A program made the position numbers and the translations under genes. Below, piece by piece: positions 2 to 31,577 of a DNA stretch of 64,000 nt. The stretch is from Nocardioides terrae (GTDB lineage Bacteria; Actinomycetota; Actinomycetes; Propionibacteriales; Nocardioidaceae), in the NCBI RefSeq assembly GCF_900112345.1, contig NZ_FOLB01000011.1, forward strand, positions 1 to 64,000. Reading direction: 5' to 3'. Numbering within the stretch: position 1 is the first letter of the stretch; each line of letters starts with the position of its first letter. The notes beneath the pieces are model-generated. The model saw only the letters and a list, made by a program, of their open reading frames with translations, did no database searches and was not told where the DNA came from.

Positions 2-295
2 CGGATCGAACGGTTGATGACCGACAACGCCTGGGCCTACCGCTGGTCGCTTCGAGCTGTCTGCGCCGAGCACGGCATCCAGCAGAAGTTCATCAAGCCC
101 CACTGCCCGTGGCAGAACGGGAAGGTAGAGCGCCTCAACCGCACCCTGGCTACCGAGTGGGCCTACCGCCAGGTCTTCACCAGCAACGCCGACCGGGCAG
201 CAGCCCTTGCACCCTGGCTCGAGCACTACAACACTGAACGTCGCCACAGCGCACTCGGAGGACGACCGCCGATCAGCCGCCTGTCACCAACCTGA
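2..295 (+). CDS. IS481/IS3-like transposase, C-terminal part (cut by window edge)
   Basis: The frame is open from the window edge and gives about 97 residues of a DDE integrase-core transposase, the enzyme that cuts and joins insertion-sequence ends. One catalytic Asp lies in TDNAWAY, and the catalytic Glu follows 35 positions later in NGKVERLN, the expected D-34/35-E spacing. The segment HYNTERRHSALGGRPP near the end is typical of the IS481/IS3 group. The first Asp and the N-terminal helix-turn-helix would lie outside the window. No inverted-repeat end could be placed downstream, so I cannot say whether the element is complete. Family call is secure; exact IS name unknown. Confidence 0.85.
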   Translation, partial: RIERLMTDNAWAYRWSLRAVCAEHGIQQKFIKPHCPWQNGKVERLNRTLATEWAYRQVFTSNADRAAALAPWLEHYNTERRHSALGGRPPISRLSPT

Positions 296-312: not shown

Positions 313-387
313 GCGCTGCTCACCCGCTACCTGCGGGAGCTGCGCGGCCTGATGACGGAGGACTGGCGGGACGCCCGCTCCTCCTGA
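313..387 (+). pseudogene. Possible 3' remnant of a gene interrupted by the transposase element
   Basis: Just downstream of the transposase a plus-strand frame ends LTRYLRELRGLMTEDWRDAR then two Ser and a TGA at 385-387. It looks like a natural amphipathic protein C-terminus but has no start of its own. It overlaps the 3' end of the cytochrome b gene on the other strand. I could not recognise the family; the reading as a remnant is inference. Confidence 0.22.
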
Positions 388-1829
388 GCCGCGGCTCCGA
401 TCCGGCCCCGTGCCTCGGGGCGGAGCGGCACGTGCGGCTCCCAGTACCGACCCTCCGCCGACCGCATCATCCGGCCGGTCGGCACGCCGTGCTCGACGGC
501 CTCCCGGTCACGCGCCTGCAGCGCCCGGCATAGCCCGACGGTGACGATGTAGCCCAGCACCGGAGCCGCGACCAGCAGGACGCGGAGGACGAGCACCTGC
601 GTCTCGAAGCCGACGTGGAACGTCGTGGCGACGATGTCGGTGCTGCCCGAGAGCCAGAGCAGCCCGAAGAAGGTGAAGCCGGCGACCCCGAGTCCGGTGC
701 GGCGGGGCCGGTTGCGCGGCCGGTCGAGGACGTGGTGCTCGCCGCGGTCGCGGGTCACCCACTGCTCGAGCAGCGGGTAGAGGACGACGACGCCCAGGAA
801 GACGGCCGCGACCAGCTCGGGGACCAGCACGGCGAGCGGCAGGGTCCCGCCGAGCCAGGAGACGTCCCAGCTGGAGGGAGCCAGCCGCAGCGCGCCGTCG
901 AGCCACGACGTGTACCAGTCGGGCTGGCTGCCGGCCGAGGCGGACTCGGGCGAGAAGGGGCCGTAGAGCCAGATCGGCGCCACCGTCAGCGTCCCGCCCA
1001 TGACGACCAGGACGCCCGCGGTCACCAGGAACATCCCGGCACGCCGCGCCGCCGCGGCCGGCCAGGGCGGGCCGACGACATTGGACTCCCGGCGTCCCGG
1101 CCCGGGCAGCTGCGGCGGTCGCCGGCGCCGGGCGACGACGTACCGCGCCACCAGCACGGCCGCGAGCAGCACCGGGACGACCAGGACGTGCAGCCAGAAG
1201 AGCCGCGGCACGATGTCACCCGGGAACTCGCCACCGAAGACCAGCGCCGTGAGCCGGCTGCCGACGAACGGCGTGCCGACGAGGATGCCCTCGAAGATCC
1301 GCAGCCCGGTCCCGGACAGCATGTCGTCGGGCAGGTCGTAGCCGCTCCAGCCGCCGGCGAGCGCCAGCACGAACGTGGTGGCGAGCAGGACCCAAGCCAG
1401 CCGGTAGGGCCGGCGGAACGCCCCGGTGAAGAACCGGGTCGCCAGCTGCAGCATGAGCGAGGCCGGCAGGACCAGCGCCGCCCAGTGGTGCGTCTGCCGG
1501 AGCAGCATCCCGCCGCGGACCTCGAGGGAGAGGTGGACCGTCGAGGCGTAGGCCGCGCTCACCGGCACCCGGCGCAACGGCAGGTAGGTCCCGGAGTAGG
1601 TCACCACCTCCGACGACGGGTCGTAGTGCACGAGCAGGAGGACGCCGGTCACCACCAGGACGGCCAGGCAGCTCGCCGACACCGCGCCGAGCAGGCGGCT
1701 CCAGTGGTTCGGCTCCGCCCGCATCGCGAGGCCGCCGTACGTCGCCATCGACCGGAGGCGTCTGCGGTGGGTCCGCGCGGGTGGCGGACAGGTGACCTGC
1801 TGTTCGCGGAGCGACGTCGTCGAGGTCAT
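327..1829 (-). CDS. Orphan QcrB-like cytochrome b lacking one heme ligand pair
   Basis: About 500 residues, similar along its length to actinobacterial QcrB, the quinol-oxidising membrane subunit of the cytochrome bc1 complex. Visible family marks are the EVRGG segment, RQTHHWAAL in helix 2, SLPDD-like YDLPDDMLSGTGL, GGEFPGD, the PGPG linker and the quinol-site motif PDWY (about residue 303). Family ligands for the first heme are kept (His114, His214). The second-heme positions, 14 and 15 residues further on, are Gln128 and Arg229. No qcrA or qcrC lies beside it. I start it at ATG 1829, which has GAGAG upstream and begins 13 bases after the preceding stop; ATG 1748 is an alternative. The last 20-30 residues look non-homologous and may be an extension created by the nearby insertion. 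Confidence 0.85.
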   Translation of the reverse strand: MTSTTSLREQQVTCPPPARTHRRRLRSMATYGGLAMRAEPNHWSRLLGAVSASCLAVLVVTGVLLLVHYDPSSEVVTYSGTYLPLRRVPVSAAYASTVHLSLEVRGGMLLRQTHHWAALVLPASLMLQLATRFFTGAFRRPYRLAWVLLATTFVLALAGGWSGYDLPDDMLSGTGLRIFEGILVGTPFVGSRLTALVFGGEFPGDIVPRLFWLHVLVVPVLLAAVLVARYVVARRRRPPQLPGPGRRESNVVGPPWPAAAARRAGMFLVTAGVLVVMGGTLTVAPIWLYGPFSPESASAGSQPDWYTSWLDGALRLAPSSWDVSWLGGTLPLAVLVPELVAAVFLGVVVLYPLLEQWVTRDRGEHHVLDRPRNRPRRTGLGVAGFTFFGLLWLSGSTDIVATTFHVGFETQVLVLRVLLVAAPVLGYIVTVGLCRALQARDREAVEHGVPTGRMMRSAEGRYWEPHVPLRPEARGRIGAAAQEERASRQSSVIRPRSSRR

Positions 1830-2066: not shown

Positions 2067-2093
2067 GACCGCCGCCGCGGTTCGACTGTGACG
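2067..2093 (-). promoter_or_regulatory. ECF41-type promoter for the hydrolase-fragment/cytochrome b pair
   Basis: On the minus strand CGTCACA (2093-2087) is followed after exactly 16 bases by GGTC (2070-2067). This fits the ECF41 consensus as I recall it (TGTCACA-N16-CGTC) with one change in each box. The expected start of transcription is near 2060, 45 bases before the ATG at 2016. The same layout recurs six more times in the window. Confidence 0.6.
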
Positions 2094-2130: not shown

Positions 2131-2712
2131 CTACTGCCTGACGGGCCGCGCGGCGTGCCCGTAGAAGAGCTCGCGGTCACCCGCGTCCCAGCGCTCGCGC
2201 AGCCCCGGCGCGGTCAGGTCCCAGTCGGGCCGGATCTCGCGGGTGACGGTCCGCAGGTCCTGCCACAGCTCGGTCGTCGTCGGCCGGCCCCAGAACCAGT
2301 AGCCGTTGTAGACCGAGTGGACGGCCAGCCCGGGCGCGAGCACGAGGGTGTGCGGGATCATCGGGTCGTCGCCGGGATCGGTGTACTCGAAGATGTCGAG
2401 ATCCCGCTGCACGGTCCGCTCCGGGTCGGAAAGGAACGGCCACTGGGCGCCGACGGCGTCGTGGAACTCCTGCCCGCCGCGCGGCTGGTCCGGGGTGATC
2501 GTGGCGACCCGGGTGTAGGCGACCGCGATCTTCGGGTAGAAGGCCGCGAGCTCGAGGTGCTGCTGGTGCTCCTTGGGGCAGTACGCCCCGCGCGCGAGCG
2601 TGAGGATCATCGGGTCCCCGCCCTGGATCTCGGAGAGGCGGCGCCTCGTCCCGGTGTGGTCCAGCAGGTCGTAGTCGGGGAACGTGCCCCCGGGGATCAG
2701 TGCAGGGTGCAT
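2131..2712 (-). CDS. Peroxiredoxin-like (AhpC/TSA fold) one-Cys protein
   Basis: A 193-residue protein of the thioredoxin/peroxiredoxin fold, which would reduce peroxides or act as a redox partner in the cytoplasm. The strand-loop LTLARGAYCPKEHQQ holds the only cysteine (Cys45) at the peroxidatic position. There is no resolving cysteine, so it would need an outside thiol. TITPDQPRGG and FLSDPERTVQRDLDI match the second half of the fold. ATG 2712 has GAGGAG eight bases upstream. It follows the 38-codon ORF by 10 bases and probably shares its promoter at 2907. It resembles the peroxiredoxin-like group with a degenerate PxxxT/SxxC motif more than true AhpC. Confidence 0.75.
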   Translation of the reverse strand: MHPALIPGGTFPDYDLLDHTGTRRRLSEIQGGDPMILTLARGAYCPKEHQQHLELAAFYPKIAVAYTRVATITPDQPRGGQEFHDAVGAQWPFLSDPERTVQRDLDIFEYTDPGDDPMIPHTLVLAPGLAVHSVYNGYWFWGRPTTTELWQDLRTVTREIRPDWDLTAPGLRERWDAGDRELFYGHAARPVRQ

Positions 2713-2880: not shown

Positions 2881-2907
2881 GACCGGTCAGCGGGCGGATC
2901 GGTGACA
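2881..2907 (-). promoter_or_regulatory. ECF41-type promoter for the 38-codon ORF and peroxiredoxin gene
   Basis: Minus-strand TGTCACC (2907-2901), 16 bases, then GGTC (2884-2881). One mismatch in each box to the recalled ECF41 consensus. The predicted transcription start near 2874 leaves a 35-base leader holding the GGGAGAGG ribosome site of the ORF at 2839. Confidence 0.58.
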
Positions 2908-2982: not shown

Positions 2983-3714
2983 TCAGGACTGCTCGGCGAC
3001 CCAGTCCTCCCAGCGCGGTCCACGGACGACCGCGTCCGGGCCGGGCAGCATCGAACCGCCGGCCATGCTGGCGGGGGCGGGCACCGCCTCGACCTCGAGG
3101 CCCTCGCCGCGCAGCTCGACGAGTCGGCGGACCAGGTCGACGAGGCTCTCCTGCTGCGGACCGGCGAGATCGGTGTCCGCGGCGGTGTCGGCCGTGGCCA
3201 GCTCGACGAGGAGACGGGCGATCTCGGCGCTGGCGACGGGCTGCAGGGGCACGTCGATGATGTGGGTGACGGCTCCGTCCTTGTTCCACTCCAGCATCTG
3301 TCCGGCGAACTCGTGGAACTGGGTGGCGCGCAGCACGACCGGGCCGGGCGCGGACCGGCGTACGGCCTGCTCCTGGGCGACCTTCGCGACGTAGTAGCCA
3401 TAGTCCGGGCTCTTGTCGGCGCCGACGATCGAGAGCACCACGGTGCGGAGTACGCCGGCCGCGACCGCGGCCGTACCGAGGTTCTCAGCGACCGTCTGGA
3501 AGAAGGCGGTCGCCTCGGCCTCGTCCAGCGAGGGGCTCTGGGTGACGTCGATGACGGCCTCGACGCCGGCGAGCGCCTCGGTGAGTCCATCGGGAACGGT
3601 CAGGTCGAAGCCGGTCTGGCGGGCGAGGCCGACGACCTCGTGCCCGGCCTGCTGGACGAACGTGACGACCTGGCTGCCGATCAGGCCGGTCGAACCGGCG
3701 ACGGCGATCTTCAT
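2983..3714 (-). CDS. NAD(P)-binding Rossmann protein, YwnB/NmrA-like
   Basis: A 243-residue atypical short-chain dehydrogenase-like protein. The N-terminus carries the dinucleotide-binding motif AGSTGLIGSQ. The central LSIVGADKSPDYGYYVAKVAQE holds the Tyr-x-x-x-Lys pair (YYVAK) of the SDR family. ATG 3714 has AAGGAG seven bases upstream. It is a paralogue of the gene at 12949. It lies opposite an Rrf2 regulator across a palindromic operator, the same pairing as ywnA/ywnB in Bacillus as I recall it, which points to redox- or stress-controlled expression. Substrate unknown. Such oxidoreductase/epimerase-type genes are the usual partners of ECF41 sigma factors. Confidence 0.82.
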   Translation of the reverse strand: MKIAVAGSTGLIGSQVVTFVQQAGHEVVGLARQTGFDLTVPDGLTEALAGVEAVIDVTQSPSLDEAEATAFFQTVAENLGTAAVAAGVLRTVVLSIVGADKSPDYGYYVAKVAQEQAVRRSAPGPVVLRATQFHEFAGQMLEWNKDGAVTHIIDVPLQPVASAEIARLLVELATADTAADTDLAGPQQESLVDLVRRLVELRGEGLEVEAVPAPASMAGGSMLPGPDAVVRGPRWEDWVAEQS

Positions 3715-3741
3715 GATGTGCTCCTTACGCGGATAGTTGAC

Positions 3742-3769
3742 ATCCGTGATTGAATCACGAAACACGGAT
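3742..3769. promoter_or_regulatory. Palindromic operator between the Rossmann gene and the Rrf2 gene
   Basis: A perfect palindrome CGTGATT-g-AATCACG (3745-3759) sits inside a second inverted repeat ATCCGTG-N14-CACGGAT (3742-3769). It lies in the 82-base space between divergent genes and is best explained as the binding site of the adjacent Rrf2 regulator. Overlapping half-sites would allow two binding registers. Confidence 0.65.
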
Positions 3770-3784
3770 AAGACGTAACCGGGT

Positions 3785-3790
3785 TATGCT
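3785..3790 (+). promoter_or_regulatory. -10 element of a leaderless promoter for the Rrf2 gene
   Basis: TATGCT ends 6 bases before the GTG at 3797, so transcription should begin at or next to the start codon. The absence of a ribosome site before 3797 agrees with a leaderless message. Confidence 0.5.
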
Positions 3791-3796
3791 GAGGTC

Positions 3797-4270
3797 GTGA
3801 AGATGAACGCTGGCGTCGAGTGGGCCATCCACTGCTGCGTGGTCCTGAGCTCGGCCGACGGTCCCGTCTCGGCCCAGCGGCTCGCCGAGTTCCACGGGGT
3901 CTCGCGGACCTACCTGGCCAAGAGCCTGCAGTCGCTGTCGCGGGCCGGCATCGTCGAGACCACCGAGGGCCGCGTCGGCGGGTACGTGCTGTCGCGGCCC
4001 GCCGACGAGGTGAGCGTCCTGGCGGTCGTCCAGGCCATCGAGGGCCGGGAAGCTGCCTTCCGGTGCACCGAGATCCGGCAGAACGGTCCCTTCGGGGCGT
4101 CGCCGGAGGAGTGTGTACGCCCCTGCGGCGTGGCCACGGTGATGGCCGCCGCCGAGCGCGCCTGGCGCGCCTCGTTGCGCGAGGTCACCATCGCCGACCT
4201 CGCCGGCCAGGTCGCGGCGGAGACCGACGAACCGACCCAGGTCGCCGTCGGCCGGTGGCTGCGGCCGTGA
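3797..4270 (+). CDS. Rrf2-family transcriptional regulator
   Basis: A 157-residue DNA-binding regulator with an N-terminal winged helix (QRLAEFHGVSRTYLAKSLQSL as recognition region, then the wing TTEGRVGGYVLSRP). Three cysteines (Cys90, Cys106, Cys110) lie in the C-terminal part, the arrangement that binds an Fe-S cluster in IscR/NsrR or senses thiol stress in other members. GTG 3797 is chosen because a -10 box ends 6 bases before it; ATG 3803 is possible. Likely represses itself and the divergent Rossmann gene through the palindrome at 3742-3769. Whether it holds a cluster is not shown by sequence alone. Confidence 0.88.
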   Translation: MKMNAGVEWAIHCCVVLSSADGPVSAQRLAEFHGVSRTYLAKSLQSLSRAGIVETTEGRVGGYVLSRPADEVSVLAVVQAIEGREAAFRCTEIRQNGPFGASPEECVRPCGVATVMAAAERAWRASLREVTIADLAGQVAAETDEPTQVAVGRWLRP

Positions 4271-7434: not shown

Positions 7435-8166
7435 ATGTCGACGCTCGCACGGGACATCGTCCCCCGTGAGGCTGCCCAGGCTCACGACGGAGTGGTCGAG
7501 ATGGAGCGTGCGCTGGAGGTCTTCCTCGCCCACCGCATCCGGCTGTTCCGCATCGCCCACCGGATCACCGGTGACGTGGCCAGCGCCGAGGACGTCGTCC
7601 AGGAGGCATGGGTGCGCTGGCAGCGCACCGACCGCACGGCCATCAAGAGCCCGGGAGCGTTCCTGACCACCGCGACGACGCACCTCGCGATCAACCTGAT
7701 CCAGACCGCGCGGCACCGCCACGAGACCACGGCCGAACCGCCCCCGGCCGACCTCGCCGACAGCGGGCAGGACCCCGCGGCCCGCGTCGAGCAGGTGGCG
7801 GCGGTCCAGGAGAGCCTTCGGCTGATGCTGGCCAGGCTGACCCGGCCCGAGCTGACCGCCTACCTGCTGCGCAAGGGCTTCGACCACCGGTACGCCGACA
7901 TCGCAAGCCTCCTCCGGACGAGCGTGGCCAACACCAGACAGCTCGTCCGCCGCGCCCGGCTCCGCCTCGACGGCGGCCAGGACCACGCGGTCGACCCGGC
8001 CGAGCTGCACCTGCTGACCACCGCATTCCTCCGCGCCGCCGGCACCGGCGACTTCCAGCCGCTCGAGCGGCTCCTGGTCGACGACGCCGCCCGCGCCCTT
8101 GCCTGCGCAGGCACTCACCGCTCCCCGATCGGGCGCGGACACCGCCCGATGGCCCGGTTCGCCTGA
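7435..8166 (+). CDS. ECF sigma factor, SnoaL-fused ECF41-like class, truncated C-terminus
   Basis: A 243-residue sigma-70 family protein. Region 2 lies at about residues 29-95 (RLFRIAHRITGDVASAEDVV) and region 4 at about 140-180 (TAYLLRKGFDHRYADIASLL, then TRQLVRRARLRL). After this, AELHLLTTAFLRAAGTGDFQ and LERLLVDD is the beginning of the SnoaL-like domain that ECF41 sigma factors use as a built-in regulator. The domain stops after about 50 residues, whereas family members run to roughly 290-330 residues. ATG 7435 has AGGAGG seven bases upstream. No anti-sigma gene adjoins it, as expected for this class. Its likely targets are the seven motif-bearing promoters in the window. Confidence 0.85.
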   Translation: MSTLARDIVPREAAQAHDGVVEMERALEVFLAHRIRLFRIAHRITGDVASAEDVVQEAWVRWQRTDRTAIKSPGAFLTTATTHLAINLIQTARHRHETTAEPPPADLADSGQDPAARVEQVAAVQESLRLMLARLTRPELTAYLLRKGFDHRYADIASLLRTSVANTRQLVRRARLRLDGGQDHAVDPAELHLLTTAFLRAAGTGDFQPLERLLVDDAARALACAGTHRSPIGRGHRPMARFA

Positions 8167-11051: not shown

Positions 11052-12785
11052 TCACTCGACGAGCTTGCCCTCGGTCGACACCTCGTCACGGATCAGCCGG
11101 GCCAGCTCGGCCGGGACCGGTGCGATCTCCTCACGCACCACCCCGATCGCGGGCGACCAGACCAGGTTCACCTGGAGATCGGGGTCGAGGTCGGGGTGGT
11201 CGCCGCGGTTGTGGCAGCCACGTGTCTCGCGACGCTCCAGCGCGCACTCCAGCGTGGCTCGCGCGGCCAGCAGCGACGCCTTCAGGTCGAAGGCGTGTGC
11301 CAGGTCCTGGAAGCCGGCGATGTCGGGATGGATGCCGACGGACTCGGCCCGGCCCTCGATCTCCTCGACGTCGAGCAGGCCCGCCAGCAGTCCCGCCTCG
11401 TCGCGTACGACGCCCGCGTGCTCGGTCATCGTGTCCCGGACCGCGCGCTGCAGGGCGCGCACGTTCTCCCGACCGTCCGAGACCACCAGCGCCCGCACCT
11501 CCTCCCGCGCCTCGTCCTCCGCCTCGCGCGACCGCCGGTGCGTCTGCAGGCAGGCGGAGTGCTCCGCGGCGGCCCGAGCCGTGATGCGGCCGTACACGAG
11601 CAGCTCGATCAGTGAGTTGCCGCCGAGCCGGTTGGCGCCGTGCAGCCCGCTGGCCGCCTCGCCGATCGCGTACAGGCCGTCGACGTCGGTGCCATGGTCC
11701 TCCGGACGCACCCAGACGCCGCCCATCGAGTAGTGCGCCGTGGGGGCGACCTCGATCGGGTCGGTGGTGATGTCGAGCATCTGCAGCTCGAGCAGGGTCT
11801 GGTAGACGCGGGGCAGCCGGGTCATGATCGTCTCCCGCGGCAGGTGGGAGACGTCCAGCCAGACCCCGCCGTGCGGAGTGCCGCGGCCGGCCTTGATCTC
11901 GGAATAGGACGCCAGCGCCACGCGGTCGCGGGTCGAGAGCTCCATCCGCTCCGGGTCGTAGCGCTCCATGAAGCGCTCGCCCAGCGCGTTGCGCAGGATC
12001 CCGCCCTCCCCGCGCGCGGCCTCGGAGACCAGCGTGCCGGCGGCGTTCTCCGGCTCGAGCAGGCCCGACGGGTGGAACTGCACGAGCTCGGCGTCCCGCA
12101 GCCTCGCCCCGGCGTCCACCGCGAGGCGGAACGAGTCGCCGTTGTTCTCGTCGCGCCGCGACGACGTACGCCGCCAGATGCGGGTGTGACCGCCGGCCGC
12201 CAGGATCACGGCGTCGGCGTGCAGCAGGTAGCGGGTGCCGTCGGTCAGGTCGAAGGCGTAGGCGCCGAAGGCGGCACCGTCCTTGACCAGGATCCGCGTG
12301 ACGTAGAGGCCGTCGAGGATCCGCACGTCCAGCTGTTCGGCACGGGTGACCAGTGCGCGCTGGATCGCGAGACCGGTGTAGTCGCCGGCGAAGGCCGTGC
12401 GCCGGTAGGTGTGGGCGCCGAAGAAGCGCTGAGAGATCCGGCCGTCGTCCTCCCGGGCGAAGTCCATCCCGAACCGGACGAGGTCCGCGATCCCGCGCTC
12501 GGCCTCCTTCGCCACGATCTCGACCGTGCGGGGATCGGCGAGGAAGTAGCTCTCCTTGATGGTGTCAGCGGCGTGCTGCTGCCAGCTGTCGGCGGGGTCC
12601 ATCGTGCCGAGCGCGGCGTTGATGCCGCCCGCGGCCAGGGACGTGTGGGCGTCCAGCCGCGGTCGCTTCCCGATCACCAGGACGTCGGTCCCGACCTCGG
12701 CGAGCTCGATGGCTGCCCGCAGGCCCGCCCCGCCCGTGCCGATGACGAGCACGCTCGTCGTGATCCGCCGCTCGTTCGCGCTCAT
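11052..12785 (-). CDS. Orphan SdhA/FrdA-like flavoprotein
   Basis: A 577-residue FAD protein of the succinate dehydrogenase/fumarate reductase family. The FAD-binding N-terminus is VLVIGTGGAGLRAAIELA. The AHTSLAAGGINAALG segment holds His47, the position of covalent FAD attachment in SdhA; L-aspartate oxidase lacks this His. Substrate-site marks are LSTRDRVALA, VQFHPSGLLEPE and the HYSMGGVWV loop, and HGANRLGGNSL is near the C-terminus. No iron-sulfur or membrane-anchor subunit gene adjoins it, so its electron partner is unclear. ATG 12785 has GGGAGAGG upstream. It is transcribed away from the gene at 12949, and both have ECF41-type promoters. Confidence 0.87.
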   Translation of the reverse strand: MSANERRITTSVLVIGTGGAGLRAAIELAEVGTDVLVIGKRPRLDAHTSLAAGGINAALGTMDPADSWQQHAADTIKESYFLADPRTVEIVAKEAERGIADLVRFGMDFAREDDGRISQRFFGAHTYRRTAFAGDYTGLAIQRALVTRAEQLDVRILDGLYVTRILVKDGAAFGAYAFDLTDGTRYLLHADAVILAAGGHTRIWRRTSSRRDENNGDSFRLAVDAGARLRDAELVQFHPSGLLEPENAAGTLVSEAARGEGGILRNALGERFMERYDPERMELSTRDRVALASYSEIKAGRGTPHGGVWLDVSHLPRETIMTRLPRVYQTLLELQMLDITTDPIEVAPTAHYSMGGVWVRPEDHGTDVDGLYAIGEAASGLHGANRLGGNSLIELLVYGRITARAAAEHSACLQTHRRSREAEDEAREEVRALVVSDGRENVRALQRAVRDTMTEHAGVVRDEAGLLAGLLDVEEIEGRAESVGIHPDIAGFQDLAHAFDLKASLLAARATLECALERRETRGCHNRGDHPDLDPDLQVNLVWSPAIGVVREEIAPVPAELARLIRDEVSTEGKLVE

Positions 12786-12828: not shown

Positions 12829-12855
12829 GACCGGACCGCCGACCGGCCTGTGACA
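12829..12855 (-). promoter_or_regulatory. ECF41-type promoter for the SdhA-like gene
   Basis: Minus-strand TGTCACA (12855-12849), 16 bases, GGTC (12832-12829). The -35 box is a perfect match to the recalled ECF41 consensus. It is back-to-back with the promoter at 12869, and the two -35 boxes form an inverted repeat, CCTGTGAC-N15-GTCACAGG. Confidence 0.66.
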
Positions 12856-12868
12856 GGTCCGGCCGTCC

Positions 12869-12895
12869 CGTCACAGGAGGCGGCCCTGTCCGGTC
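12869..12895 (+). promoter_or_regulatory. ECF41-type promoter for the second Rossmann gene
   Basis: Plus-strand CGTCACA (12869-12875), 16 bases, GGTC (12892-12895), giving a start near 12902 and a leader of about 47 bases with AGAGAGG before ATG 12949. It mirrors the leftward promoter at 12829-12855. Confidence 0.62.
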
Positions 12896-12948
12896 AACCG
12901 GGTGTTGCAGGACCATCCGGGATCGAACGAGGAAGAGAGAGGTGCCTG

Positions 12949-13704
12949 ATGAAGGTCGTAGTCATCGGAGGAAGTGGGCTGATCGGATCGAAGGTGGTCA
13001 AGCTCCTCGGCGAGCACGGCCACGAGGCCGTTCCGGCGTCCCCCCAGACGGGGGTGAACACGCTGACGGGTGAGGGCCTCGACGAGGTGCTCGCCGGAGC
13101 CGATGTCGTCGTGGACGTCTCGAACTCGCCGTCGTTCGCCGACGACGACGTCATGCAGTTCTTCACCACCTCGACGACGAACCTGCTCGAGGCGGAGCGG
13201 AAGGCCGGCGTCGACCACCACGTCGCGCTCTCGATCGTCGGCTGTGACCGGGCGCCCGACAGCGGCTACCTCCGCGCCAAGGTCGCTCAGGAGCGGCTGA
13301 TCGAGGAGTCCGGCGTGCCGTACTGCATCGTCCGCGCCACCCAGTTCTTCGAGTTCGGCAAGGCCATCGCCGACTCCGCCACCGTCGGCGACGAGGTCCA
13401 CCTGCCGCCGGTCGCGTTCCAGCCCATCGCCTCGGACGACGTCGCGAGCGCGGTGGGGAGGATGGCCGCCGGCGAGCCGATCAACGGGCACGTCGAGGTC
13501 GCCGGCCCGGCCCGGTACCGGTTCGACGAGTTCATCGCCGGCGTCCTGGACCACCTCGGCGACCCGCGCCGCGTCGTCGCCGACCCCCAGGCGCCGTACT
13601 TCGGTCAGGTGCTGGTCGAGGAGTCGATCGTCCCGACGGACGACGGTGCGGCGCTGGGCGCCACCAGCTACGAGGAGTGGCTGGCGCGCTCCGAGCAGCG
13701 CTGA
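12949..13704 (+). CDS. NAD(P)-binding Rossmann protein, NmrA/YwnB-like, second copy
   Basis: A 251-residue paralogue of the protein at 2983-3714. It begins with the dinucleotide motif VIGGSGLIGSKVV and has the parallel central segment LSIVGCDRAPDSGYLRAKVA, with a Tyr-x-x-x-Lys pair (YLRAK). ATQFFEFGKAIAD follows, as in its paralogue. Reaction and substrate are unknown; the family includes NADPH-binding sensors and reductases. ATG 12949 follows GAAGAGAGAGG. Genes of oxidoreductase/epimerase type next to ECF41 sigma factors are a known association, and this gene has an ECF41-type promoter. Confidence 0.83.
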   Translation: MKVVVIGGSGLIGSKVVKLLGEHGHEAVPASPQTGVNTLTGEGLDEVLAGADVVVDVSNSPSFADDDVMQFFTTSTTNLLEAERKAGVDHHVALSIVGCDRAPDSGYLRAKVAQERLIEESGVPYCIVRATQFFEFGKAIADSATVGDEVHLPPVAFQPIASDDVASAVGRMAAGEPINGHVEVAGPARYRFDEFIAGVLDHLGDPRRVVADPQAPYFGQVLVEESIVPTDDGAALGATSYEEWLARSEQR

Positions 13705-13765: not shown

Positions 13766-13792
13766 TGTCACACCCGCGTGGGCTGCGTGGTC
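13766..13792 (+). promoter_or_regulatory. ECF41-type promoter for the NDH-2 gene
   Basis: TGTCACA (13766-13772), 16 bases, GGTC (13789-13792). The start of transcription would be about 13798-13800, which is past ATG 13796 and next to GTG 13802. If the promoter is used, translation of the following gene must begin at GTG 13802 or later and the message would be leaderless. Confidence 0.62.
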
Positions 13793-13795
13793 TGC

Positions 13796-15199
13796 ATGTA
13801 CGTGAAGAACTCCATCCGCACACACCGAGGCGCCGCGCCCCGACGGATCGTCATCGTCGGGGGCGGGTACGCCGGCTTCTACACCGCCTGGCAGCTCGAG
13901 AAGCGGCTGCACCGCGGCGAGGCCACCGTCACGGTCGTCGACCCGCTGCCCTACATGACCTACCAGCCGTTCCTGCCCGAGGTGCTCGCCGGTTCCATCG
14001 AGGCGCGGCACGCCGTGATCTCGCTACGTCGCCATCTCCGGCGCACCCAGGTGATCAACGGTGCAGCGATCTCGATCGACCACGGTCACCGGACGGTTCT
14101 CGTGCACCTGACCGGCGGCGGCGAGATGGAGCTGGGGTACGACGAGGTCGTCGTCACCGCCGGCTCGGTCACGCGGACCTTCCCGATCCCCGGGATCCCG
14201 GACGAGGCGATCGGGCTCAAGCGGATCGAGGAGGCCGTCGCGATCCGCGACACGCTGCTCACCTCGCTGGACATCGCCGCGGACCTCCCTGCGGGGCCCG
14301 ACCGTGACCGGTTGTTGACGGTGACGTTCGTCGGAGGCGGCTTCGCCGGCGTCGAAGGGTTCGCCGAGCTGCTCAGCCTCGCCCGCGCGGTCGCGCGCAA
14401 GCGCTACCGCATCGACCCCGACGACCTGCGTTTCCACCTGGTCGAGGCGGCCGGCCGGATCCTGCCCGAGGTCAGCCTGCCGGTGAGCGGGTGGGTCGCG
14501 CGGCGGCTCGCCCGCAAGGGGGCCACCGTCCACCTCGACACCACCGTCAACTCCGTCTGCGACGGCGTCGTCGAGCTCTCCTCGGGCGAGCGGTTCGAGT
14601 CCGGCCTGATCGTGTGGACGGCCGGGATCGCCGCGAACCCGGTGATCGCCAAGCGCACCGACCTGCCCACGAACCGGAAGGGCCTGATCGTCGTACGCCC
14701 CGACCTGCGGGTGGGGACCGACGACGATCCGGTGGCCGGCGCCTGGGCCGCCGGCGACGCCGCCGCCGTCCCGGACCTCGCGGTCGGCGGATCGGCCTAC
14801 ACCGTTCCCAACGCACAGCACGCCGTGCGGCAGGGCAAGCGGCTGGCCCGGAACCTGCGAGCGGTCGTCCGCGGCCGGCGTACGCACCCCTACCGGCACC
14901 GCAGCCTCGGCATCATCGCGACGCTCGGGCTCGGGGACGGCGTCTTCGAGAGCGGCCCCGTCGTGCTCAAGGGGTTCCCCGCCTGGCTCGTGCACCGCGG
15001 CTACCACGTGCTCGCGATCCCGAGCTGGGAGCGCAAGCTGCGGGTGCTGGCGGTGTGGTTGCTGGCCGTCCCGCTCGGCCGGGACATCGTCTCGCTGCGC
15101 TCGGTGCAGCAACCGGGCTACGGCTTCCGGCACGAGGGCCAGGTCTGGTACCCCGACACCCGTCGACGCGAGGTCGAGGAGGCCCGCGCCGCCAGGTGA
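13796..15199 (+). CDS. ndh: Type II NADH dehydrogenase (NDH-2), FAD/NAD(P) oxidoreductase
   Basis: About 467 residues. Two Rossmann motifs are visible: IVIVGGGYAGFYTAWQLEK for FAD near residue 18 and VTFVGGGFAGVEGFAEL for NAD near residue 178. AWAAGDAAAVPD followed by NAQHAVRQGKRLA is the usual C-terminal FAD/quinone segment. NDH-2 passes electrons from NADH to membrane quinone without pumping protons, at the inner face of the membrane. There is no good ribosome site; ATG 13796 is used here, but the promoter geometry favours GTG 13802. Its neighbours are the SdhA-like flavoprotein and the orphan cytochrome b, so it could feed the same quinone pool. Confidence 0.85.
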   Translation: MYVKNSIRTHRGAAPRRIVIVGGGYAGFYTAWQLEKRLHRGEATVTVVDPLPYMTYQPFLPEVLAGSIEARHAVISLRRHLRRTQVINGAAISIDHGHRTVLVHLTGGGEMELGYDEVVVTAGSVTRTFPIPGIPDEAIGLKRIEEAVAIRDTLLTSLDIAADLPAGPDRDRLLTVTFVGGGFAGVEGFAELLSLARAVARKRYRIDPDDLRFHLVEAAGRILPEVSLPVSGWVARRLARKGATVHLDTTVNSVCDGVVELSSGERFESGLIVWTAGIAANPVIAKRTDLPTNRKGLIVVRPDLRVGTDDDPVAGAWAAGDAAAVPDLAVGGSAYTVPNAQHAVRQGKRLARNLRAVVRGRRTHPYRHRSLGIIATLGLGDGVFESGPVVLKGFPAWLVHRGYHVLAIPSWERKLRVLAVWLLAVPLGRDIVSLRSVQQPGYGFRHEGQVWYPDTRRREVEEARAAR

Positions 15200-31550: not shown

Positions 31551-31577
31551 TGTCACATTCCGTGCGCCACGGCCGTC
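31551..31577 (+). promoter_or_regulatory. ECF41-type promoter, perfect consensus match
   Basis: TGTCACA (31551-31557), exactly 16 bases, CGTC (31574-31577). Both boxes agree fully with the ECF41 consensus as I recall it. The start would be near 31584, leaving a 35-base leader with AAGGAGAG before ATG 31619. This is the best of seven copies in the window. Confidence 0.72.

Follow-up and report, generated by a model that had tools for sequence, protein, structure and literature searches.

Cytochrome b of the bc1 and b6f complexes is held to need both of its hemes for electron bifurcation, and the locus described here raises the question of what is left for such a protein to do when the ligand columns of one heme no longer hold histidine. 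The window, by which we mean the whole stretch of 64 kb analysed, takes up the start of contig C22 in a Nocardioides genome of 3.92 Mb, window base 1 being the first base of the contig, and close to that end lies the gene of a QcrB-like protein that we call QcrBx, a putative one-heme paralogue of QcrB. A first-pass annotation had read it as a one-heme carrier of quinol electrons or as a sensor. The features on which our argument turns are collected in Table 1.

Table 1. Features of the window, with coordinates, strand and the observation behind each assignment
Feature	Coordinates	Strand	Basis or remark
Integrase/transposase-like ORF (IS481/IS3-like by eye)	2-295	+	contig starts inside the ORF; separated from the QcrBx end by 31 bases
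QcrBx (one-heme QcrB paralogue, putative)	327..1829	-	500 aa; profile, PDB and fold matches
PDWY, quinol-oxidation site motif, residues 303-306	912..923	-	kept 45/45
Arg229 codon (CGG), helix-D bH ligand column	1143..1145	-	Arg 43/45; His 0/45
His214 codon, bL ligand of helix D	1188..1190	-	kept 45/45; alignment
Leu149 codon replacing the helix-C glycine	1383..1385	-	Leu 45/45; Gly 109/110 in HHHH
Gln128 codon (CAG), helix-B bH ligand column	1446..1448	-	Gln 45/45; His 110/110 in HHHH
His114 codon, bL ligand of helix B	1488..1490	-	kept 45/45; alignment
Alpha/beta hydrolase remnant, 57 codons	1843..2016	-	just upstream of QcrBx; named by eye
ECF41-like site CGTCACA-N16-GGTC	2067..2093	-	before hydrolase remnant and QcrBx; variant of consensus
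Peroxiredoxin-like (AhpC/TSA) gene	2131..2712	-	upstream of QcrBx
ECF41-like site TGTCAC-N17-GGTC	2881..2907	-	before peroxiredoxin gene
ECF sigma factor, SigX4/SigJ-like	7435..8166	+	scores 154 bits (cut-off 323) and 138.5 bits (cut-off 271)
SdhA/FrdA-like flavoprotein	11052..12785	-	homologues near NDH-2 or QcrBx in some relatives
ECF41-like site TGTCACA-N16-GGTC	12829..12855	-	before flavoprotein gene
ECF41-like site CGTCACA-N16-GGTC	12869..12895	+	before epimerase/NmrA-like gene
NAD(P)-binding epimerase/NmrA-like gene	12943..13704	+	
ECF41-like site TGTCACA-N16-GGTC	13766..13792	+	before NDH-2 gene
NDH-2 (type II NADH dehydrogenase)	13796..15199	+	matches solved NDH-2 chains; type preceding QcrBx in 23/45

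QcrBx and its heme-ligand columns

The reading frame of QcrBx is intact in the ORF translation of the window, running on the minus strand from an ATG at 1829, and residues 28-472 of the product match NF050120, the NCBIfam profile of actinobacterial QcrB, with 506.3 bits against a cut-off of 500. QcrB chains in the PDB are matched with E-values of about 1e-105 to 1e-110, Pfam finds cytochrome b domains only, and the AlphaFold model (mean pLDDT 79.1) superposes on the solved QcrB 7q21_B with Z 45.9 and rmsd 2.6 over 451 aligned residues. Assignment to cytochrome b6 or to ExtP was rejected, as the curated families of these types score the protein far under their cut-offs (83.5 against 325 bits for NF002990 and 93.2 against 290 for NF040969), and a recent break by the mobile-element ORF at the contig edge was rejected on the intact frame; a relative, L003 (79-80%), aligns with QcrBx to near its end. 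Both ends of the hydrolase remnant resemble the L003 homologue (3080-4219), the middle being absent in frame. The same genome holds a second QcrB, on contig C15, which has histidine in all four ligand columns and lies behind apparent ctaE, qcrC and qcrA genes, that is, in a normal ctaE-qcrC-qcrA-qcrB stretch.

For comparison we assembled 157 distinct QcrB-like proteins, pooled from a scan of database contigs and from searches of the window's own genome and at genus, class, phylum, family and order level; proteins were admitted if they carried the anchor HHW and exceeded 400 in length, copies being removed and one split gene (L198) left out. Classified by the residues in their four ligand columns, these are 110 HHHH, 43 HQHR, 1 HQHW, 1 HQHL, 1 HHHY and 1 HHHG (the initial 80 database loci had held 18 HQHR, 61 HHHH and 1 HHHG, and an intermediate set of 122 had held 29 HQHR). 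Alignment with two-heme QcrB proteins puts H114, Q128, H214 and R229 of the window protein in these columns, and the spacings given by the first-pass annotation, +14 from His114 to Gln128 and +15 from His214 to Arg229, are right. The double substitution recurs in 45 of the 157 proteins, all with Gln128 and none with histidine at 229, which we refer to together as HQHx; in the HQHW (L201) and HQHL (L195) proteins an arginine stands one residue further on, and in L008 and L020 helix D is one residue shorter just after His214.

We take the first histidines of helices B and D to be the ligands of bL, on the outer, quinol-oxidation side, and the second ones to be those of bH, on the inner side. Because the second histidines hold bH on this assignment, the pair lost in QcrBx would be that of bH, which supports the earlier placement of both lost ligands on the quinone-reduction side, and the bL pair and the PDWY motif of the quinol site, said there to be kept, are indeed present in every HQHx protein. 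A search of the inner halves of helices B-D throughout the clade found no conserved alternative histidine, the only frequent inner-side one being H42 at the start of helix A (29 of 45). An alignment error or a shifted histidine was rejected on that ground, and random variation at the ligand columns was rejected by the column counts over the 157 proteins and by the tree, in which HQHx is a single clade (SH-aLRT 98).

The change reaches beyond the ligands themselves. In six columns all 45 HQHx proteins share a residue other than the commonest one in HHHH (P122, Q128, L149, W161, S162 and R262), among them that of Leu149, presumably equivalent to the helix-C glycine that packs against bH; Arg131, near the bH ligand, is mostly replaced, and R111, H114, H115, H214 and PDWY are kept throughout. 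Counting as invariant those columns that are at least 95% conserved in the 110 HHHH proteins, and as lost those kept in under half of the 45, we find that helices A-E have lost 17 of 33 invariant columns on the inner side versus 3 of 44 on the outer (Fisher p 1.2e-5), and that over residues 38-474, with the two sides divided according to the helix order of the model, the losses are 17 of 55 versus 6 of 61 (p 0.005).

These observations bear on the chance, slim in our judgement, that a second heme still sits at the inner site through unusual ligands such as Gln128 and Arg229. To our knowledge neither glutamine nor arginine is a usual ligand of heme b, and the leucine fixed in place of the helix-C glycine, the replacement of Arg131 and the extensive change of an otherwise conserved inner side all argue against it. 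Histidine 212 of Rhodobacter capsulatus cytochrome b is presumably the counterpart of column 229. The near-fixation of the pair (Gln128 in 45 of 45, Arg229 in 43 of 45) speaks for such a heme, as the two residues may have a role, and so does a precedent described in PMC4807273, the R. capsulatus mutant H212K, in which lysine replaces a bH ligand and the heme is still functional. Because H212K regains a functional heme, the heme content of QcrBx is not to be assumed. If the ligand reading does hold, a normal Q cycle would not be possible for QcrBx, a conclusion already drawn in the first-pass annotation and supported here by the fixation of the bH-side loss throughout the clade.

On the outer side two arginines that all 110 HHHH proteins share are mostly gone, R105 being kept in 11 and R209 in 9 of the 45, and both could be contacts to partners that are now missing. 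Their loss counts against the reading, improbable in our view, that QcrBx pairs with the cell's normal QcrB in heterodimers and so yields a bcc complex short of one bH, a natural equivalent of the engineered knock-out. The complete qcrC-qcrA-qcrB stretch in the genome and the modelled fold, which is that of QcrB, would permit this; the gene neighbours and the promoter type, which differ between HQHx and HHHH genes as set out below, would not lead one to expect it.

One clade with part-way relatives

In a tree of 92 rows, comprising all HQHx proteins, the intermediates and a sample of HHHH rows and built with ten trait columns omitted, the branch already cited separates the 45 HQHx proteins from all other rows, and a second branch (SH-aLRT 99) does so for the 45 HHHH rows; an earlier tree of 84 of the 122 rows, with all columns, gave support of 99 to the 29 HQHR rows. 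Since each class lies beyond its own branch, the HHHG protein L082 and the HHHY protein L193 fall between HQHx and HHHH, both being long or lone rows and the grouping of L193 with HQHx having a support of only 36. In both, the helix-D histidine is the ligand lost. L082 (5905-7329, from Kribbella kalugense) has PAWY instead of PDWY, and no qcrA, qcrC or NDH-2 was found in its stretch.

HQHx genes are thinly spread. Nine carriers were identified among 147 Nocardioides genomes, the column check there being limited to the higher-scoring genes plus a few others; in the family f37 HQHx occurs in 14 of 249 genomes, with one HHHY in addition, and in the order sample in 10 of 293, three of which (G000, G105 and G067) were already counted with the nine Nocardioides carriers. 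Further members come from genomes named Promicromonospora, Isoptericola, Antribacter, Myceligenerans, Actinotalea and Microlunatus. Outside the class, the best match in a phylum sample of 396 genomes reached 475.6 bits, versus at least 618 for the members listed, which does not support HQHx there, in a search that could miss a very diverged member; the window protein matched the Nocardioides carrier G070 with no more than 416 bits. One genome has two QcrBx copies, L198 (G1324:C37) and L199 (G1324:C47), the first of them split by an in-frame stop.

Patchiness of this kind, together with the L198 copy in two ORFs, is what one would see if QcrBx were a decaying paralogue heading for loss, an explanation that we consider very improbable. 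The ratio dN/dS by NG86 is 0.24 for the window gene versus L003 and 0.12-0.21 for three other pairs (0.04 and 0.03 by YN00 for two of the four), six columns are newly fixed in all 45 proteins, and the neighbouring gene and the promoter-like sites described below are conserved. Judged from sequence comparison, the loss of the presumed bH ligands is fixed in one clade, which is under purifying selection.

Gene neighbours and promoter-like sites

As the first-pass annotation had stated, QcrBx has no qcrA or qcrC neighbour: neither occurs within 30 kb of the window's start, where the other side of the gene is visible for 326 bases only, and neither was found in the fetched stretch of any of the 45 HQHx genes. 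Of the 110 HHHH genes, 83 have qcrA and 67 have qcrC in the stretch; 27 are without qcrA, but 12 of these have less than 1.5 kb of sequence upstream, so that they count as orphans only provisionally. The gene that does recur beside QcrBx is that of a type II NADH dehydrogenase, NDH-2. With at least 40% identity to the window's enzyme it lies in the stretch fetched around 30 of 45 HQHx genes versus 0 of 110 HHHH genes, a contrast favoured by the often shorter HHHH stretches (49 of the 110 extend 4 kb in each direction), and in 23 of 45 it is directly upstream of QcrBx on the same strand, as it is for the HHHY protein L193. Its absence from the fetched stretch of 15 of 45 HQHx genes counts against the explanation that we favour below.

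Across whole genomes this NDH-2 type is present in nine of nine Nocardioides carriers of QcrBx, in five of them within the QcrBx stretch and in G000, G090, G105 and G070 about 11 to 20 kb away, and it is present in two further Nocardioides carriers (G1324 and G1329). The host genome has one other NDH-2 gene, with 29% identity to that of the window. As controls we took 60 genomes without a QcrBx match: none of 30 in Nocardioides had this NDH-2 (E up to 1e-60), and in f37 all 30 did. Co-occurrence within f37 therefore says nothing, NDH-2 being a resident enzyme there, and in Nocardioides QcrBx and NDH-2 look like a pair that moved in together.

Other neighbours recur less often. The stretches of 10 of 45 HQHx genes and of 1 of 110 HHHH genes contain a homologue of the SdhA/FrdA-like flavoprotein, placed upstream of NDH-2 in L007 and L011 and downstream of QcrBx in L185 and L197. 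Homologues of the window's sigma factor, itself under the curated cut-offs, are in the stretch of 21 of 45 HQHx versus 3 of 110 HHHH genes, and a sigma-factor cluster, named by eye, lies within 4.5 kb of QcrBx in 10 of 24 loci. The window sigma factor stops soon after region 4, and its L187 homologue continues with a part containing DGGG; that the window factor looks shorter counts against the explanation favoured below. Rrf2 and, named by eye, LuxR-type ATPases are further regulators in the window stretch. No gene for an outer-face electron acceptor recurs beside QcrBx in the clustered loci, the clusters being mostly named by eye.

That last result favours the main rival to our preferred reading, namely that QcrBx is not a turnover carrier and serves as a menaquinol or redox sensor, or as a membrane docking subunit for NDH-2. 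We rate it as somewhat unlikely. It would also fit the position of NDH-2 directly upstream in 23 of 45 loci and the company of an ECF sigma factor, Rrf2 and LuxR-type ATPases in the same stretch; against it stand the PDWY motif and bL ligands, kept in all 45 proteins although a pure scaffold would have no use for them, and the fact that Pfam sees only cytochrome b domains on QcrBx.

The presence of a sigma factor nearby is of interest in view of sites that resemble ECF41 promoters. According to Wecke et al. 2012 (PMC3426412), the ECF41 promoter is TGTCACA-n16-CGTC, COE genes are the only known and detectable ECF41 targets, a shortened ECF41 factor is highly active, and M. tuberculosis without its ECF41 factor SigJ is, in work cited there, slightly sensitive to H2O2, the authors' own tests having given no oxidant phenotype in two other species. 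We scored the published consensus with its 16-base spacer, allowing C or T at the ends of the -10 element, within 300 bases upstream. Sites with 10 or 11 of 11 positions lie upstream of 17 of 45 QcrBx genes or NDH-2 operons, eight of them with all 11; 1.7% of random windows from the same loci hold such a site, and for 28 of 45 QcrBx genes none is present at 10 of 11. In the HHHH genes of qcr operons the count is 0 of 83, for a region that lies before qcrB and inside the operon. Among the 27 HHHH genes without qcrA three have such a site (L137, L073 and L052), and so does L082. Since L137, L073 and L052 keep four histidines, the move to such promoters may predate the loss of bH.

A widened pattern, applied to the 45 HQHx loci and L193 and widened after sites had been seen, finds sites (expected numbers in brackets) before 15 of 32 NDH-2 genes (0.60), 10 of 45 QcrBx genes (0.84), 17 of 20 epimerase/NmrA-type genes (0.37), 3 of 11 flavoprotein genes (0.21), 4 of 23 sigma-factor genes (0.43), 4 of 9 zinc-ribbon-like genes (0.17), 1 of 5 peroxiredoxin genes (0.09) and 0 of 4 genes of a second NmrA-type group (0.07); in HHHH loci it finds 0 of 67 for qcrC, 0 of 83 for qcrA and 4 of 111 for qcrB. 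The -10 element of the sites before NDH-2, QcrBx and flavoprotein genes is often GGTC or TGTC.

The window itself has eight sites of the widened pattern versus a mean of 1.05, and at most 5, in shuffled sequences. Five of them precede the QcrBx operon and the peroxiredoxin, flavoprotein, epimerase-like and NDH-2 genes, and the shuffles fill a mean of 0.01 of these five regions, at most 1, the regions having been picked after the sites had been seen. The other three (11020, 31551 and 52928) do not precede those genes; the one at 31551-31577 (+) is the sole match in the window to TGTCACA-N12..19-CGTC and stands shortly before the in-frame stretch MSYTVDFKNVSATG. Between the peroxiredoxin gene and its site lies a 38-codon ORF (2723-2839, -). 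Upstream of the window QcrBx gene there is only a variant of TGTCACA-N16-CGTC, ahead of the hydrolase remnant, and it may now serve QcrBx.

A candidate menaquinol branch and its place among known systems

The earlier interpretation of QcrBx stands in part: the bH-side loss, the kept bL pair and the want of a bc operon beside the gene agree with our results, and what it overlooked are the normal qcrCAB genes of the same genome, the NDH-2 partner and the ECF41-like sites. In bc1 chemistry, with bL and a quinol site and with neither bH nor a Rieske protein, menaquinol gives at most an electron to bL. Without bH, Rieske protein and cytochrome c, QcrBx would thus run no Q cycle, and electrons would have to leave at the outer face. 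NDH-2 would oxidise NADH at the inner face and reduce menaquinone; QcrBx would take the menaquinol at its outer-side site and place one electron onto a single heme bL; from there the electron would exit to an outer-face acceptor or go back, or alternatively the heme would report the state of the quinol. Because an electron on bL could leave only outward or return, we favour an uncoupled branch in which electrons pass from NADH through NDH-2, menaquinone and QcrBx to an acceptor at the outer face. The set would be switched on by a SigJ-like sigma factor of ECF41 type, under whatever stress this factor reports.

Our best explanation, to which we would give an even chance, is that QcrBx has left the bcc complex and works in a Rieske-free menaquinol branch with NDH-2, carrying one heme (bL), running no Q cycle and standing under the control of an ECF41-type sigma factor. 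A bolder version, offered tentatively, is that the clade abandoned the Q cycle altogether, with one heme, no Rieske protein and an NDH-2 of its own forming an inducible route, conserving no energy, by which electrons from NADH leave through menaquinol at the outer face, under ECF41-type control, and with the HHHY and HHHG proteins as preserved steps on the way. At the level of genes and motifs, the locus points to a side branch of respiration in bacteria that is as yet uncharacterised and is tied to a non-pumping NADH dehydrogenase. In the open-access literature we found no description of a cytochrome b that naturally has one heme or lacks bH, nor of a link between QcrB and ECF41, an absence that carries little weight.

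The nearest known system is the QcrB of actinobacterial cytochrome bcc (III2-IV2), with which QcrBx shares its fold, the outer heme ligands, PDWY and a score just over the NF050120 cut-off; unlike it, QcrBx is without the bH ligands, has leucine for the helix-C glycine and an altered inner side, adjoins NDH-2 instead of qcrA and qcrC, is associated with ECF41-like sites and coexists with a normal QcrB. As QcrBx passes NF050120, automatic annotation as 'cytochrome bc1 complex cytochrome b subunit' can conceal a protein of another kind. The orphan two-heme paralogues of actinobacteria (the 27 HHHH rows) resemble QcrBx in having no qcrA beside them and, in 3 of 27, an ECF41-like site; unlike QcrBx they keep four histidines, and no such NDH-2 was found in their stretch. 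The heme bH knock-out H212N, made in R. capsulatus cytochrome b and described in PMC4807273, likewise has a bH ligand replaced, but it is a laboratory mutant within bc1, whereas QcrBx occurs naturally, lacks both ligands and adjoins no Rieske or cytochrome c gene. A clade that keeps only the outer site, with relatives part-way towards it, would serve as a natural experiment on the capabilities of the outer half by itself. Finally, the loci of the clade resemble the ECF41 regulons described in PMC3426412 in their TGTCACA-N16-CGTC-like promoter sites, SigJ-like sigma factor and epimerase/NmrA-type neighbour, and differ from them in that the targets there are COE genes, whereas similar sites here precede NDH-2, QcrBx and flavoprotein genes, which suggests that ECF41-type sigma factors may have targets beyond the COE genes.
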